A stretch of DNA of 64,000 bases from Thermincola carboxydiphila (lineage in GTDB: Bacteria; Bacillota; Thermincolia; Thermincolales; UBA2595). A model generated the notes under the pieces. It was not told the origin of the DNA. It did no database searches and saw only the letters and a list, made by a program, of their open reading frames with translations. The stretch lies in contig JAENZX010000001.1 in the NCBI GenBank assembly GCA_016841045.1, positions 267,541 through 331,540 on the forward strand, given 5' to 3'. Below are positions 2,970-31,347 of this stretch, piece after piece (the stretch's first letter is position 1; each line of letters opens with the position of its first letter). The position numbers were made by a program, and so were the translations under genes.

Positions 2970-3002
2970 ATTACAAGTTACAAATTAACTTCATAATTCT
3001 CC

Positions 3003-3150
3003 GTATCGCTGAGTTCTCATTTTAGAGAAACGGGGGAACCACATCATCGGGGTGAATCCATACCGGGGACGCAAGTCCGAAGTATGGTAGGGCTACTTTC
3101 GGCCCTAATCCGGCAGCTAACTTCGTAAGCGTTGAAAGGGAGAGCACATT
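3003..3150 (+). ncRNA. ydaO/yuaA-type c-di-AMP riboswitch
   Basis: The conserved blocks occur in order: CGCTGA at 3007, GGGGGAACC near 3032, GGGGTGAATCC at 3049-3059, GGTAGGGCTACTTTCGGCCC then AATCCGGCAGCTAAC, and TTCGTAAGCG ending at 3131, with a trailing GAAAGGGAGAG. These are the signature sequences of the ydaO class. Cyclic di-AMP binding to this class generally switches expression off. Hairpins at 3162 and 3238 provide an expression platform. The controlled genes, ablA and ablB, make an osmolyte, fitting the known role of c-di-AMP in osmotic control. Confidence 0.93.
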
Positions 3151-3191: not shown

Positions 3192-3237
3192 GGCCTGTAT
3201 TTGCTTTCGCTTTGGCATGTCTTCATATTATGACGTT

Positions 3238-3265
3238 AACCCCGGATTATCTCCGGGGTTTTAAT
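3238..3265 (+). terminator. Strong terminator hairpin just upstream of ablA
   Basis: A perfect 9-bp stem AACCCCGGA (3238-3246)/TCCGGGGTT (3252-3260) with loop TTATC and a TTTT run. It sits between the c-di-AMP aptamer and the ablA ribosome site, so it is the most likely regulated terminator of the riboswitch. Confidence 0.75.
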
Positions 3266-3292
3266 ACTTTCCGAGGAGGTTTCAAAAAAAAT

Positions 3293-4570
3293 ATGCGTGA
3301 CTTTAAATCCATTCCTTTGTGGCAGAATGTTTCAGATGAACAATGGAACGACTGGCACTGGCAAATCAAAAACCGTATAACTACACTGGAGCAGCTCCAG
3401 CAGGTTGTTAAACTAACTCCTGAAGAAATACAAGGGGTCAACTTGTGCCTGCAAAGCCTGAGAATGGCTATTACACCTTACTATGCAACATTGATGGACC
3501 CAAACAACACAGATTGCCCAATTCGCAAACAGGCAATACCAACCATTCATGAAACGGTTAAATCAGACTCCGATCTACGGGATCCCCTCCATGAGGAAGC
3601 TGATTCTCCTGCACCGGGAATAACCCACAGATATCCTGACCGGGTGCTGCTGCTGGTTACAGATCAATGCAGCATGTACTGCCGCCATTGCACAAGGAGG
3701 CGCTTGGCAGGAAACACTGACAAAACTCTGCCAACAAGCCAGACAGAGCAGGCAATTAATTATATCAGGGGTAATCCAGAAATTCGTGATGTGTTAATTT
3801 CCGGTGGTGATCCATTATGTCTTCCAACTCACAAGCTTGAACACATAATTGCCAGCCTGAGAGCTATTCCGCATGTGGAGGTTATTCGCATCGGAACACG
3901 TACACCTGTAGTACTTCCTCACCGGATTACTGATAAATTGGTCAGGATGCTGTCAAAATATCATCCGTTGTGGATAAATACTCATTTTAATCATCCCAAA
4001 GAACTTACTCCTCAAAGCATCGAGGCCTGCAACAAGCTTGCTAATGCAGGAATCCCACTGGGTAACCAATGTGTTCTGCTTAAGGGTGTTAACGATTGTC
4101 CCGGGATAATGAAAAAGCTAATGCACGGGCTGGTTAAAACCAGAGTAAGGCCTTATTACATGTACCAGTGTGATCTGTCTGAAGGAATTGAACATTTCCG
4201 GACATCTGTGTCCCGGGGAATAGAAATAATAGAGCTTCTACGAGGACATACCTCGGGGTTTGCCGTTCCGACATACGTTATTGATGCCCCTGGGGGAGGA
4301 GGAAAAATACCTGTCAATCCACAGTATATGATTTCCCAGTCACAAGATAAAGTAATTCTCAGAAATTACGAAGGAATAATCACCACTTATGCAGAGCCGG
4401 TGGATAAGACAAGTGACTGCAGTAACTGCGGACTATGTGGATCAACTCAGGGCAACCTCAATTTTGGCCTCGGCAAACTCATAAATGATGACAAAATCAG
4501 CCTGATACCTAAGGATAACAATAGAATTCTACGCAGAGGCAATAAATTAAAACGGGCAGGTGAATGTTAA
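3293..4570 (+). CDS. ablA: L-lysine 2,3-aminomutase
   Basis: 425 residues. A radical-SAM, PLP-dependent enzyme converting L-alpha-lysine to L-beta-lysine. The iron-sulfur motif CSMYCRHC places the three cysteines at residues 126, 130 and 133; the predicted PLP lysine is Lys338 in GGGGKIPVNPQY, and a C-terminal cysteine cluster (376, 379, 382) matches the zinc-binding end of clostridial enzymes. The ATG at 3293 is chosen because GAGGAGGT lies 13 nt before it and because an earlier in-frame ATG at 3212 lies upstream of the terminator hairpin. ablB begins 1 bp after the stop. With ablB and a c-di-AMP riboswitch, osmolyte synthesis is much more likely than lysine fermentation. Confidence 0.95.
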   Translation: MRDFKSIPLWQNVSDEQWNDWHWQIKNRITTLEQLQQVVKLTPEEIQGVNLCLQSLRMAITPYYATLMDPNNTDCPIRKQAIPTIHETVKSDSDLRDPLHEEADSPAPGITHRYPDRVLLLVTDQCSMYCRHCTRRRLAGNTDKTLPTSQTEQAINYIRGNPEIRDVLISGGDPLCLPTHKLEHIIASLRAIPHVEVIRIGTRTPVVLPHRITDKLVRMLSKYHPLWINTHFNHPKELTPQSIEACNKLANAGIPLGNQCVLLKGVNDCPGIMKKLMHGLVKTRVRPYYMYQCDLSEGIEHFRTSVSRGIEIIELLRGHTSGFAVPTYVIDAPGGGGKIPVNPQYMISQSQDKVILRNYEGIITTYAEPVDKTSDCSNCGLCGSTQGNLNFGLGKLINDDKISLIPKDNNRILRRGNKLKRAGEC

Positions 4571-4571
4571 T

Positions 4572-5420
4572 ATGAACCAGGTTCAAGACAAGGTTATAGA
4601 ATCCAGTCTTGACGGGTGCCAAGTAAAAATTCATCTCGATTATTTAAACCAACGAATTAAAGTTACAAGCTATAATACAGAAGACGTTGTTCCCCTAAGC
4701 CAATACTTAGATGTATTGGCTTCAGGAAATGTCTTTGGTAAAATAATCATTTCAGCCCGTGAGGACGAATGGCGAATGTTTCTTTCACAAGGCTACGTAC
4801 TTGAGGCTTTCAATCCGGGCTATTTTTCGGGACGCCCCTGTTACTACCTCGCCAAATTCACAAAGAGCCAGCGCAATTATGCCTCTACTCTTATTGAAGA
4901 AGATAAAATACTGGAAAAAGTACTCAAGAAGCAGAAGCATTATAGATCTCTCCCATTGCCTTCAGGCTTCACCCTAAGAAGTGCTGTGCCAACTGATATC
5001 CCACGGCTTGTTGAACTGTATGGACGTGTTTTCTCCACTTACCCTTCTTCAATCACTGACCCGGAGTATCTAAAAAAGCTGGTTGACAGCAATTTTTTCA
5101 AAGTAGTTCTATATCAGGACGAGATAGTCAGTGCTGCTTCTTTGGAGGTAAATCATGAATTTTTGTCGGCAGAAGTAACAGACTGCCTGTGCATACCCGA
5201 ATTCGAAGGTCAGGGCCTCATGTACCGTCTAATTTACGCCTTGGAACAGGATGCAAAAAAGGCTGGTTTAAAAAACCTTTATAGTATCGCCCGGGCTCAA
5301 TCCCCTGGAATTAATGCAGTACTTAAAAAATTAGGTTATGAATACGGAGGACGTTTCACCAATAACTGTACCATCTGTGGTGGGTTTGAAAACATGAATT
5401 TATGGAACAAAGCCTGTTAG
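4572..5420 (+). CDS. ablB: Beta-lysine N6-acetyltransferase
   Basis: 282 residues from ATG 4572; a GTG at 4560 is an alternative, but AGGTGA at 4557-4562 is correctly spaced only for the ATG. The C-terminal half (about 135-265) is a GNAT domain with the acetyl-CoA loop region around IPEFEGQGLMYRLIYALE; the N-terminal half is specific to the AblB family. It acetylates L-beta-lysine to N-epsilon-acetyl-beta-lysine, a compatible solute of methanogens and some anaerobic bacteria. It sits immediately after ablA and shares its riboswitch. Confidence 0.92.
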   Translation: MNQVQDKVIESSLDGCQVKIHLDYLNQRIKVTSYNTEDVVPLSQYLDVLASGNVFGKIIISAREDEWRMFLSQGYVLEAFNPGYFSGRPCYYLAKFTKSQRNYASTLIEEDKILEKVLKKQKHYRSLPLPSGFTLRSAVPTDIPRLVELYGRVFSTYPSSITDPEYLKKLVDSNFFKVVLYQDEIVSAASLEVNHEFLSAEVTDCLCIPEFEGQGLMYRLIYALEQDAKKAGLKNLYSIARAQSPGINAVLKKLGYEYGGRFTNNCTICGGFENMNLWNKAC

Positions 5421-27587: not shown

Positions 27588-28133
27588 ATGACAAATAAGA
27601 CTATCACAACAAAAACCAAGACGGGTATTTTAACTTGTTTCGCGAAAGAATACGGGATCAGAAACAGTTTAACCCTGGGGGTTATTTTCCGAATGTGGAG
27701 CGAACAGGAAGTAATCCATAAAGGTTTTTTTGTGAGCGACCTTGCCTTCACAACCGGAGAACCGGTATTATTTATTGGCCCTGATAACCATGAAGTCCCA
27801 ACCAGATTAACATATAAAGGCACTGACTGTAGTAACATTAACAAAATATTTGAAATTATACAGTTATGTGATAAGTATTACATCTATCTTAGTTTTCCGG
27901 ATACCCCTCCACAGTGTTACCTGGATTTGTGCGAGCCGAACCCCTATGTCCAGGCAGCTGCTGTGACTAAAAGGCTCATTAGCGAACTAGAGCAAAGAAA
28001 GACTGTTAATTACGATTTCATGAAGATCTACAAAGAAGCGCTGATGATTCTTATTAACGGTGCACTTGATCAAAAGGATAAACAGCAGTTTATGGCTCTG
28101 GTGGAAGAGTGGAAAAATTTTGACCAAAGTTAA
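27588..28133 (+). CDS. Hypothetical protein with a C-terminal IDEAL-like motif
   Basis: 181 residues. The first ~120 residues are unknown to me, soluble and contain three scattered cysteines. The C-terminus (about 150-178) reads EALMILINGALDQKDKQQFM then ALVEEW, which fits the IDEAL motif found at the C-terminus of several Firmicutes proteins such as YpiB. IDEAL motifs are short helical interaction modules; function here is unassigned. Single-gene unit with its own promoter and terminator. Confidence 0.72.
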   Translation: MTNKTITTKTKTGILTCFAKEYGIRNSLTLGVIFRMWSEQEVIHKGFFVSDLAFTTGEPVLFIGPDNHEVPTRLTYKGTDCSNINKIFEIIQLCDKYYIYLSFPDTPPQCYLDLCEPNPYVQAAAVTKRLISELEQRKTVNYDFMKIYKEALMILINGALDQKDKQQFMALVEEWKNFDQS

Positions 28134-28218: not shown

Positions 28219-28869
28219 CTAAAATTTAGTTTTGACTCTGCTTTGAAGCTCAGATACCAACTGCCCAAAATCAGCCAAATCCTTCTCGGCTTTCTCCGCC
28301 CTGGCTCTTTCCTGCATAAGCTGCTGTTTAAGCTGGTTATTCGCATTTGACATTTCCTCCAAATCACCCAACTGCCTGCACATAAATTCCATGTCATTTT
28401 TGATTCCTGACATCCATGTTGTGAGTCCACTGTTTTCACTGTTAAGCCTTTGTTCCAGCTGTAGCTGCACATTGGCAAGTTCATCTCGCTCCCTGACAAG
28501 TTGAGAATCTAAATCATTATTCGCAGTGTTCTCAAGTTCTTTCTGGAGTGCTTCTTTTTCCTTTTCCAAGCGTTTAATTACTTTATTCAACTCATCTACT
28601 TTAGCTACTGCTTTACAAAACTTGTCCTTATGTGCTTCCAAATCATCTTGAAGCTTCTTTTTTGAATGCTCAATCTCATCAATTCTTACCTTAAAGTTTT
28701 CCTCTGTCTTTTGAATCTGTTCACCTAGAGTTTTGAAGTGCTTAATGACATCCTCCTCATCAAATCCTCCCATTAGCTTCTTCTTAAACTCCACTTGGGA
28801 CACTTCCTCCATTCTGTTTCTAAGCTGCTCAAAATTACCGTGAATAAAAGATACGTTCCCTCCACTCAT
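28219..28869 (-). CDS. DivIVA-like coiled-coil protein
   Basis: 216 residues from ATG 28869 with AAGGAGG 8 nt upstream; the frame's further extension to 28965 lies inside the upstream terminator hairpin and is rejected. Residues about 24-45 (EFKKKLMGGFDEEDVIKHF) match the DivIVA N-terminal pattern (F-x3-L-x-G-Y/F-D-x2-x-V), followed by about 170 residues of heptad-type coiled coil rich in Glu, Lys and Leu. DivIVA-family proteins bind curved membranes and recruit division, polarity or cell-wall partners. The gene is controlled by a c-di-GMP riboswitch, which is unusual. Alternatively it could be a generic coiled-coil scaffold. Confidence 0.8.
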   Translation of the reverse strand: MSGGNVSFIHGNFEQLRNRMEEVSQVEFKKKLMGGFDEEDVIKHFKTLGEQIQKTEENFKVRIDEIEHSKKKLQDDLEAHKDKFCKAVAKVDELNKVIKRLEKEKEALQKELENTANNDLDSQLVRERDELANVQLQLEQRLNSENSGLTTWMSGIKNDMEFMCRQLGDLEEMSNANNQLKQQLMQERARAEKAEKDLADFGQLVSELQSRVKTKF

Positions 28870-28923
28870 CTGCTTTGCCTCCTTGTTAAAACAGCTTACC
28901 ACCCTAACTTTCAGTCTATTACA

Positions 28924-28960
28924 TAAAAAACCGCAGTACGGCCAGTTACCGTTCTGCGGT
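28924..28960 (-). terminator. Riboswitch-controlled intrinsic terminator
   Basis: On the minus strand ACCGCAG and CTGCGGT form a 7-bp stem, with ACGG/CCGT pairs inside, followed by TTTTTTATG. The 5' part contains GGTAACTGGC (complement of 28941-28950), which is exactly complementary to GCCAGTTACC at the 3' end of the c-di-GMP aptamer. Confidence 0.82.
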
Positions 28961-29030
28961 TGCATACATAAAGTATTGCCATCATGTCATAAAGACCTCT
29001 CATCGATGACAAATAATTAGTCTGCTGCTT

Positions 29031-29114
29031 ACGTTAGGTAACTGGCTGCCTTAGGCTTCACCCACAGGCCCTATAGCTTTGCGTCCCAGCCTTTCGACTG
29101 GTTTGCCTTTATCA
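29031..29114 (-). ncRNA. c-di-GMP-I (GEMM) riboswitch
   Basis: On the minus strand the conserved blocks occur in order: AAAGGCAAACC, a CCAG...GAAA...CTGG stem with GAAA tetraloop, GGGACGCAAAGC, TATAGGGCCT, AAGCCTAAGGCAGCCAG and TTACC. These match the GEMM-I consensus, including the tetraloop and its receptor-like CCTAAG. The RNA leads into a terminator at 28924-28960 and the DivIVA-like gene. The 10-nt segment GCCAGTTACC can pair either within the aptamer or with the terminator's 5' arm, giving a visible switch; whether ligand turns the gene on or off cannot be decided by eye. Confidence 0.9.
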
Positions 29115-29153
29115 TTGTAAGTAATTTTTGTTAAGATAATTTTAGATAATTTA

Positions 29154-29182
29154 TTTATAACACAACATAGTAACAAATACAA
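29154..29182 (-). promoter_or_regulatory. Candidate promoter of the c-di-GMP riboswitch transcript
   Basis: Minus-strand TTGTAT (29177-29182) and TATAAA (29154-29159) with a 17-bp spacer, about 40 nt before the aptamer. Confidence 0.45.
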
Positions 29183-29244: not shown

Positions 29245-29979
29245 CTAGTTTTCACTATTTAATTGCCTAATTTCATCCAGGATTTTTTCTTTATCCCCAG
29301 CTGGCGCATCTACATACCTAATCAAATTATCTGCCCCTATTTTGTCTGTAAATTTACTCAGCCTTTGCCCCTTACGTGCCGTATTTCTAAATAAGGTGAT
29401 AATGCTATCTACTATATCCAAAACTTCTTCCCCGGTTTTCCCTTCATAAATCATATCAGCAATTCTCGGCTGGCTGCCTGCATTTCCTCCAACCAGTACT
29501 TTAAAGCCATTTGAAGTACCTATGATTCCAATATCCTTAACTGCACTTTCAGCACAGCTGTTCGGGCACCCACTAACTCCAATCTTTAGTTTATTGGGCA
29601 GAGCCATCCCATGATACTTGCTGTCAAGCTTAAGTCCAATTCCTACAGAATCCTGCTTTGCCCTTTTGCAGAAGTCTAAGCCTGGACAAATTTTCACACT
29701 GCGTACACATAAACCAATTGCGGCACCCTTGTCCATGCCAAGTTCTTCCCAGGTTTTTTCGAGATCTTCTTCCCTCAGGCCTACTAATGCAATTCGCTGG
29801 GCAGATGTTACTTTTACCAGTTTACAGCCATATTTATCCCCTATATCAGCAAGCTTTCTTAAAGTTGCCGTATCTGTTATTCCACCTGGCAGATGTGGTG
29901 CAATAGCGTATGTTTCCCTATCCCTCTGTACAATCGCACCTTGTTCCATAATGTCTTTTTTCAATTCATTAGCCTTCAT
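29245..29979 (-). CDS. Small siroheme/4Fe-4S sulfite (or nitrite) reductase-like protein
   Basis: 244 residues. It has one ferredoxin-like half-domain (about 10-75, including TSAQRIALVGL) and the siroheme-4Fe-4S cysteine pattern CPGLDFC near 98-104 and GCPNSC near 136-141. This is about half the size of classical two-repeat assimilatory reductases, and resembles the small single-repeat reductases of anaerobes and archaea. Six-electron reduction of sulfite is plausible and would complete the sulfate operon at 33.4-40.9 kb, but it is not in that operon. ATG follows GGGGGGTTATT. Confidence 0.82.
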   Translation of the reverse strand: MKANELKKDIMEQGAIVQRDRETYAIAPHLPGGITDTATLRKLADIGDKYGCKLVKVTSAQRIALVGLREEDLEKTWEELGMDKGAAIGLCVRSVKICPGLDFCKRAKQDSVGIGLKLDSKYHGMALPNKLKIGVSGCPNSCAESAVKDIGIIGTSNGFKVLVGGNAGSQPRIADMIYEGKTGEEVLDIVDSIITLFRNTARKGQRLSKFTDKIGADNLIRYVDAPAGDKEKILDEIRQLNSEN

Positions 29980-30195: not shown

Positions 30196-31347
30196 TCAAT
30201 CAGAAGAGAAGCTATTATAATGCCTAACTATCTCGTCTTGAACCTTAAAAAAGGCATCAACAATTTTAGGACAGAATTGTTTTCCAGTTTGTTCACGAAT
30301 TTCATTAGCTGCACCGGTAAATGACATCTTTTTACGGTATGGTCGGTCACTGGTCATGGCATCAAATGCATCAGCTAATGCCAAAATCCTCGCTTCCAGG
30401 GGAATTTCTTCACCTTTTAGGCCTTTGGGGTAACCACTGCCGTCATAACGCTCATGATGATAAAGCACCATGGGTACTGCTACCTTTAAAGAATTAGCGC
30501 TGGCAATAATTCTGCTTCCCATCTCTGGATGTTTTTTAATTAGTAACAAATCTTCCTTAGTTAGTTCTTTATCTTCAGTTAAAACTGAATCAGATATGCC
30601 AATTTTCCCTATGTCGTGAAGTAAACAAGCATCTGTAAAAACATCAGGCTGAATACTCAAATCAAAGCATTTGGCTATGATTTTAGCATAGCAGCTTGTT
30701 CTAAATGCATGACCTTTGGTATATTTATCTCTTAATTCTAATGCCTGAATCAGAGCATTACTACTATCGGAAAAAGCAGTTTTAAAAACTTCATCATTTT
30801 TCTGCAGCAGCTTTCCCCTAACTTCCTGCGTGTAGTGATTTAGCAAGTCAATTAATACCGCAACTATGACAAACGTGGTTAGTCTGGTTATCAATAAGGA
30901 AACTACCGAATCTTCCATGGTTGCTTTAGGCAAAATACCGGGAACAGCTAATGAAATTATTAAATAAGAACTAATCTGAATACAAGAACTGGTTAAGTGC
31001 AAAATCCTGTCTCTATACGACGTGTTAATAGCCATTATCATATAATAGAGACCAAACATTTCTGGGTTGTTCATAATAACGATTATTGTATTAACCATTA
31101 AAATCAAAATTAAGTTTACAAAATATTTCAGATAATTACTTGCAATCTTATATTTGTAAAGTATAGAAACGAATCCAAAACCCAAAACCAATGCAAACAT
31201 CATCTCTACTACCTGGCCTACTGTTCCTGTAGTGAAAGGTGAATAAATAATCAGTACTGAAATAAAAGATGCTATACCAACAGCAAACCAGCAGAGTTTT
31301 AAGATCTTTAAATTAACAGCTCTTTCAAATTCCACAAGCTCCCTCAA
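30196..31347 (-). CDS. Membrane HD-GYP domain protein (probable c-di-GMP phosphodiesterase)
   Basis: 383 residues. Six or so hydrophobic segments occupy residues 10-175, then the HD-GYP domain (about 190-370) with HDIGKIGISD, HPEMG and HHERYDGSGYPKGL, DAFDAMTSDRPYR. The metal-binding HD and the GYP triad are intact, so hydrolysis of c-di-GMP is expected. The N-terminal domain is probably a membrane sensor of unknown signal. The start is TTG 31347 or GTG 31335. It lies 1 kb from the c-di-GMP riboswitch on the same strand, without evidence of co-transcription. Confidence 0.9.
   Translation of the reverse strand: MRELVEFERAVNLKILKLCWFAVGIASFISVLIIYSPFTTGTVGQVVEMMFALVLGFGFVSILYKYKIASNYLKYFVNLILILMVNTIIVIMNNPEMFGLYYMIMAINTSYRDRILHLTSSCIQISSYLIISLAVPGILPKATMEDSVVSLLITRLTTFVIVAVLIDLLNHYTQEVRGKLLQKNDEVFKTAFSDSSNALIQALELRDKYTKGHAFRTSCYAKIIAKCFDLSIQPDVFTDACLLHDIGKIGISDSVLTEDKELTKEDLLLIKKHPEMGSRIIASANSLKVAVPMVLYHHERYDGSGYPKGLKGEEIPLEARILALADAFDAMTSDRPYRKKMSFTGAANEIREQTGKQFCPKIVDAFFKVQDEIVRHYNSFSSD

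Follow-up and report, generated by a model that had tools for sequence, protein, structure and literature searches.

A complete c-di-GMP-I (GEMM-I) aptamer lies on the minus strand of the window (i.e., the whole stretch of 64,000 nucleotides that was analyzed), and it is followed by an intrinsic terminator and a gene for a coiled-coil protein with a DivIVA-like N-terminus. The leader can adopt two mutually exclusive folds, the combination of sensor and gene is conserved in a second genus, and the N-terminus of the product is remotely similar to that of DivIVA/GpsB proteins. Based on folding, the leader is probably a transcriptional OFF switch of the Cd1 type. We assign a probability of roughly 0.7 to the joint reading of a c-di-GMP-I riboswitch, an OFF sign, and a DivIVA-like coiled-coil target; this value does not cover a role in Tad pili. 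The riboswitch itself is of a known type; its target is unusual and conserved. We favor the interpretation that c-di-GMP gates the production of a scaffold that serves the cell pole or surface machinery, possibly Tad pili. These analyses confirm the observation made in the initial annotation and partly support its interpretation; the interval given there contains the leader elements but ends at the start codon, leaving the gene outside.

The gene (28869-28222, minus strand, with the stop codon to 28219) encodes a protein of 216 aa and starts with an ATG at 28869, which is preceded at a distance of 8 nt by the Shine-Dalgarno sequence AAGGAGG (28884-28878, minus strand). A second terminator with a 12-bp stem (28177-28151, minus strand) closes the transcript and is convergent with the downstream gene. 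This convergent neighbor (27588-28130, plus strand) codes for a protein with a C-terminal IDEAL domain and a weak likeness to the ReoY family proteolytic degradation factors (47 bits versus a cut-off of 182). The product of the riboswitch-associated gene is predicted to be a cytoplasmic coiled-coil protein with an N-terminal DivIVA/GpsB-like module comprising a helix, a GG-F/L/Y loop, and a long coiled coil. In the AlphaFold model, helices spanning residues 4-24 and 38-215 are connected by a loop (residues 25-37), and the confidence is moderate over the first 40 residues (block means 53-73). The C-terminal helix is common to the protein and its closer relatives.

Of the alternatives, the one that survives best is a generic coiled coil that came to resemble DivIVA at its N-terminus by convergence and does not function as a membrane-curvature scaffold; we regard this as a serious, if less probable, possibility. 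Consistent with this idea, the protein scores below the threshold of TIGR03544 (17.4 bits versus a cut-off of 22) and does not match PF05103, and the invariant RGY of DivIVA/GpsB is replaced by GGF in the window protein and by GGF, GGL, GGY, or GGI in its relatives. PF05103 reaches 12.7 bits (cut-off 28) on the N-terminus of a relative, and a PDB sequence search with the N-terminus returned nothing relevant. However, the hhalign score of the N-terminal profile against DivIVA/GpsB (21.6) exceeds the maximum of 200 column shuffles (15.8), and in each of three sub-groups, the alignment falls on the same region of DivIVA, with scores above those of the sub-group's own shuffles. Moreover, 10 of 36 Foldseek hits are N-terminal domains of GpsB/DivIVA (e.g., 6gp7 with a TMt of 0.70 and 4ug3 with 0.67), an enrichment in which none of the hits is significant (all E > 0.001), and the module is correctly placed, i.e., N-terminal to a long coiled coil. 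The structure model of a relative, which is of low confidence, gave no GpsB/DivIVA hit in Foldseek. Matches to Pfam coiled-coil families (MscS_porin etc.) were dismissed as composition matches below the cut-offs. We suggest that the N-terminus is remotely DivIVA/GpsB-like and refer to the protein as DivIVA-like, not as DivIVA; the DivIVA-like N-terminus proposed initially holds as a remote likeness and not as membership of the curated families.

Among the nine genomes of the family that were searched, we found a single relative besides the window protein. It is encoded in another genus (genome G008) and has 33% identity in the best segment and 38% over the alignment. When genome contigs were scanned, the protein alone gave no match, and a two-row alignment recovered only this known relative. 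A GEMM-I aptamer (L024 9254-9172, called as RF03167 with 65.4 bits) is located 43 nt before the start of the longest ORF of this relative, and the sensor is therefore present on two of the two family members of the protein in the nine genomes. Because the neighbors of the G008 gene differ from those of the window gene, we conclude that sensor and gene constitute a conserved unit; with roughly 20 such aptamers per genome of that size, we estimate the chance of finding a repeated aptamer at a given gene at about 0.5%. The expression platform in G008 differs: its terminator-like hairpin is weaker, and a helix (AAATCTTCTTTAG/CTAAAGGAGGTTT) may cover the Shine-Dalgarno sequence; the mode of control may therefore have diverged between the two genes, and its sign may not be conserved. 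On the same contig (L024 13977-14217, plus strand), a BsrG-like match of 51 bits (gathering cut-off 55) marks a possible type I toxin/antitoxin-like RNA.

A wider search identified longer relatives in two further families of the phylum (f16 and f24); relatives are present in 8 of 398 phylum genomes, including the window genome and G008, giving a patchy distribution. All relatives share an N-terminal signature of LR, then a GG-[FLYI] loop, and then V, and the f16 members also share a C-terminal helix around N-x-L-x2-QL. No aptamer is present at the examined f16 and f24 relatives. While the f16 relatives adjoin unrelated genes, a Tad-pilus operon ends with the homolog in three f24 genomes. At two loci (L070 and L071), the order is TadE, TadG, CpaB, TadZ, TadA, TadB, TadC, DUF192, and then the homolog (TadG, CpaB, and TadZ were named from translations and gene order), and at L082, TadC and DUF192 precede the homolog. 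The N-termini of these relatives and the window protein are homologous (hhalign probability 96, E = 2e-9). The Tad operon of the window genome matches this order as far as DUF192 and does not include the DivIVA-like gene, which is not linked to it; the gene is part of a Tad operon only among the f24 relatives. In the window genome, the Tad operon has three GEMM-I aptamers (L074 2282-3708): a tandem pair ahead of the Flp pilin region and a single one ahead of the prepilin peptidase. Where three other family genomes and G008 carry tandem aptamers, these precede other genes and not Tad operons. TadA is encoded in 8 of the 9 family genomes and the DivIVA-like gene in 2 of 9, with no correlation between the presence or absence of the gene and Tad in this set, arguing that the gene is not a required part of the Tad system. 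DivIVA is established as a polar hub in other species (PMC11025332), and our literature search found no paper connecting DivIVA and Tad. Because relatives in another family end Tad-pilus operons, we suggest Tad (type IVc) pili as the leading candidate partner of the protein. A Tad-related role is tentative, and the greater weight goes to some other polar, envelope, or division role.

DivIVA functions in division and sporulation, and the initial annotation proposed a scaffold for one of these processes. Besides the resemblance to DivIVA itself, a parallel in Clostridioides difficile lends this proposal some credit: the cmrRST operon, which is positively regulated by a c-di-GMP riboswitch, affects cell elongation and chaining, and MrpA/MrpB, which are under Cmr regulation, associate with MinD, MinC, and DivIVA (PMC12694794). 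The literature offers no closer parallel for a division or sporulation role. However, the window genome has a separate canonical DivIVA, a protein of 170 aa encoded elsewhere, behind an S4-domain-like gene; the patchy distribution also speaks against such a role, and no division or sporulation gene was recognized near the window gene in its genome. Moreover, the only functional signal in the neighborhoods of the relatives is Tad-pilus assembly. Altogether, we consider a scaffold for division or sporulation unlikely and did not retain this link.

The architecture of the leader underlies the predicted OFF sign. As initially annotated, GCCAGTTACC (29046-29037) and GGTAACTGGC (28950-28941) are exactly complementary over 10 nt. 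The first segment, strand A (GCCAGUUACC, 29046-29037, minus strand), contributes the 3' strand of an aptamer helix when ligand is bound and the 5' strand of the antiterminator when it is not; the second, strand T (GGUAACUGGC, 28950-28941, minus strand), is located in the 5' half/loop of the terminator and is the antiterminator partner of strand A. The A/T helix of 10 bp has a duplex energy of -16.7 kcal/mol. When the downstream leader was shuffled 20,000 times with its dinucleotide composition kept, a perfect 10-nt match to the aptamer occurred in 0.53% of the shuffles for the whole aptamer and in 0.105% for its last 40 nt; thus, the complementarity is unlikely to be a product of chance (P about 0.001-0.005). 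The intrinsic terminator, which the initial annotation correctly placed between aptamer and gene, consists of a hairpin (28961-28929; -20.0 kcal/mol) and a U-tract (AACCGCAGAACGGTAACTGGCCGTACTGCGGTT, 28961-28925, minus strand), and a spacer rich in hairpins separates it from the 3' strand of the P1 helix. In the predicted folds, strand A pairs either in the aptamer or with the 5' half of the terminator, while the terminator is compatible with the aptamer, as in Cd1. In folding of the growing transcript, the aptamer fold is ahead until strand T starts to emerge; for 3' ends at 28945-28933, the antiterminator is then favored (antiterminator minus aptamer fold, -1.1 to -11.2 kcal/mol in ensemble free energies along the transcript), and once the terminator is complete (3' ends 28931-28915), the difference is +0.4 to +2.1 kcal/mol. 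For the full-length leader, the minimum free energy (MFE) is -61.0 kcal/mol with aptamer, P1, and terminator versus -57.3 kcal/mol with the antiterminator. Because ligand bound before the antiterminator window would hold strand A and free the terminator, we predict an OFF switch; folding supports the mutually exclusive folds noticed initially and adds a sign, which had not been given. In the same genome, strand A pairing into the 5' half/loop of the terminator is found on a smaller scale in four other GEMM-I leaders (L004, L012, L014, and L017), and this shared layout indicates that the switch design recurs.

Even with a genuine aptamer, the switch could work weakly, not at all, or in the opposite direction in vivo. 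Of the 16 c-di-GMP riboswitches in C. difficile, only 11 are functional. Its functional class I switches are OFF without exception (7 of 7), but ON switches of this class exist in other species (PMC6366702), so that the sign needs testing in each context. Equilibrium folding without ligand already slightly favors the terminator in the window leader. Nevertheless, the low probability of a 10-bp A/T helix by chance, the clear co-transcriptional antiterminator window, and the fact that a second genus retains the aptamer at this gene make a failing or inverted switch improbable. As for the start of the transcript, no convincing promoter was found at 29245-29121, with the overall number of matches at chance level and a single 9-of-12 match at 29269-29242. 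It is therefore possible that the leader is co-transcribed from the upstream reductase gene. This gene (29245-29979, minus strand), directly upstream of the leader, codes for a stand-alone siroheme reductase half (NirB C-terminal-like).

The aptamer (29117-29034, minus strand) is assigned to the c-di-GMP-I class by covariance model, in agreement with the initial annotation: it matches RF01051 over its full length (model positions 1-87 of 87) with 77.9 bits and E = 1.4e-13 in an Rfam scan (gathering cut-off 35 bits), and 20 of 20 mappable consensus pairs are standard pairs. P1, with the 5' strand CUUAC (29121-29117, minus strand) and the complementary 3' strand GUAAG (29032-29028, minus strand), forms 5 bp in the MFE structure of the aptamer state. 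The CGAAAG loop and AAAGGCAAACC are both found in the aptamer sequence; P2 thus carries a GAAA tetraloop, and the GGCAAAC segment has a G, not an A, where it contacts the ligand. We take position 20 to lie in the AAAGGCAAACC segment, a mapping of our own based on established knowledge and the report cited next. G20A is the mark of cGAMP-type GEMM aptamers (PMC6274999). That the aptamer senses another cyclic dinucleotide, i.e., that it is a 3',3'-cGAMP-type GEMM-Ib or a c-di-GMP-I-GGC aptamer of altered specificity, is very unlikely, because the RF03167 (c-di-GMP-I-GGC) match at the window site (65.5 bits versus a gathering cut-off of 59) and the RF03167 call in G008 are offset by the better score of RF01051, by the G in place of the cGAMP-type A, and by a candidate HD-GYP c-di-GMP phosphodiesterase encoded two genes upstream. 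Most GEMM-I aptamers of the genome match both RF03167 and RF01051; the RF03167 label therefore does not discriminate between ligands, and we dropped it as a sign of a different one.

The HD-GYP domain protein (30196-31347, minus strand) has an N-terminal membrane region, matches PF13487 with 116 bits and NF053512 with 134 bits (below the cut-off of 400), and contains HD and HHE..DGSGYP motifs. It is a candidate phosphodiesterase and a possible local eraser of c-di-GMP. In total, the window genome has 21 GEMM-I aptamers, and the genes beside them include the Tad operon and genes for a chemotaxis receptor, a sulfatase-domain protein, copper-amine-oxidase-domain and transglutaminase-like proteins, and a PBP-like binding protein. 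Two of the leaders (L018 and L019) have short AGTGGGTAGTGG/TCACTAC-type repeats in and after the P3 region of the aptamer, resembling repeats that invade or expand in an aptamer. The window also contains a c-di-AMP (ydaO) riboswitch (2997-3146, plus strand, 91.5 bits) directly before genes at 3212-5420 (plus strand) whose translations read as a lysine 2,3-aminomutase-like and an acetyltransferase-like protein (ablA/ablB-like, for the osmolyte N-epsilon-acetyl-beta-lysine). This placement would tie c-di-AMP to compatible-solute synthesis; a literature search returned no paper that pairs a c-di-AMP riboswitch with ablA/ablB-like compatible-solute synthesis.

We propose the following model for the riboswitch-associated gene. 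At low c-di-GMP, strand A (29046-29037) would leave the aptamer and pair with strand T (28950-28941) once the latter is transcribed, which would block closure of the terminator and allow the gene to be expressed. With c-di-GMP bound, the aptamer and P1 (29121-29117/29032-29028) would retain strand A, the terminator (28961-28925) would form, and transcription would halt. The product, in turn, would self-assemble at a membrane site, probably the pole, and act as a scaffold for surface machinery. We infer that the switch responds to its ligand in vivo and that the protein localizes to the membrane or pole. On the simplest joint reading, the protein is a scaffold for Tad pili or another surface apparatus and belongs to the c-di-GMP regulon. 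More speculatively, it could be a dedicated DivIVA-like scaffold, separate from the housekeeping DivIVA and under direct riboswitch control, such that c-di-GMP decides whether a pole or pilus organizer is built, in parallel to the GEMM-I-controlled Tad operon.

The targets of c-di-GMP riboswitches known so far are mostly genes for motility, adhesion, and signaling, and a DivIVA-type gene preceded by a c-di-GMP riboswitch did not turn up in our literature search. A polarity-type scaffold as a direct target, conserved together with its sensor in two genera, would join the decision between free-living and attached life to the placement of machinery. In addition, the readable switch makes this leader an easy test case in vitro, and the relatives in Tad operons offer a first functional handle on an uncharacterized family of coiled-coil proteins. 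Compared with DivIVA/GpsB (PF05103 and TIGR03544; 2WUJ, 4UG3, and 6GP7), the family is predicted to share the N-terminal helix, a G-F/Y-D/E-E-x-x-V loop, and the long coiled coil; it differs in that GGF/GGL/GGY replaces RGY, in one extra residue that separates the aromatic residue from the loop, in a longer first helix, and in scores below the curated cut-offs. The proteins encoded at the end of the f24 Tad operons (L070, L071, and L082) are homologous to the window protein over the N-terminal 60 residues, and the gene order of these operons matches that of the Tad operon in the window genome up to DUF192; however, these relatives have no riboswitch nearby, and their coiled coil is longer and divergent. 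Finally, the leader resembles Cd1 (Cdi-1-3, before flgB) of C. difficile, in which a GEMM-I aptamer also acts with transcriptional OFF logic, and in both leaders, strand A is common to aptamer and antiterminator and strand T to antiterminator and terminator, following the P-A-T-H scheme (PMC9262584). The two differ in P1, which is undetected in Cd1 and predicted with 5 bp in the window leader, and in their targets: Cd1 controls a flagellar operon, whereas the window leader precedes a single coiled-coil gene.
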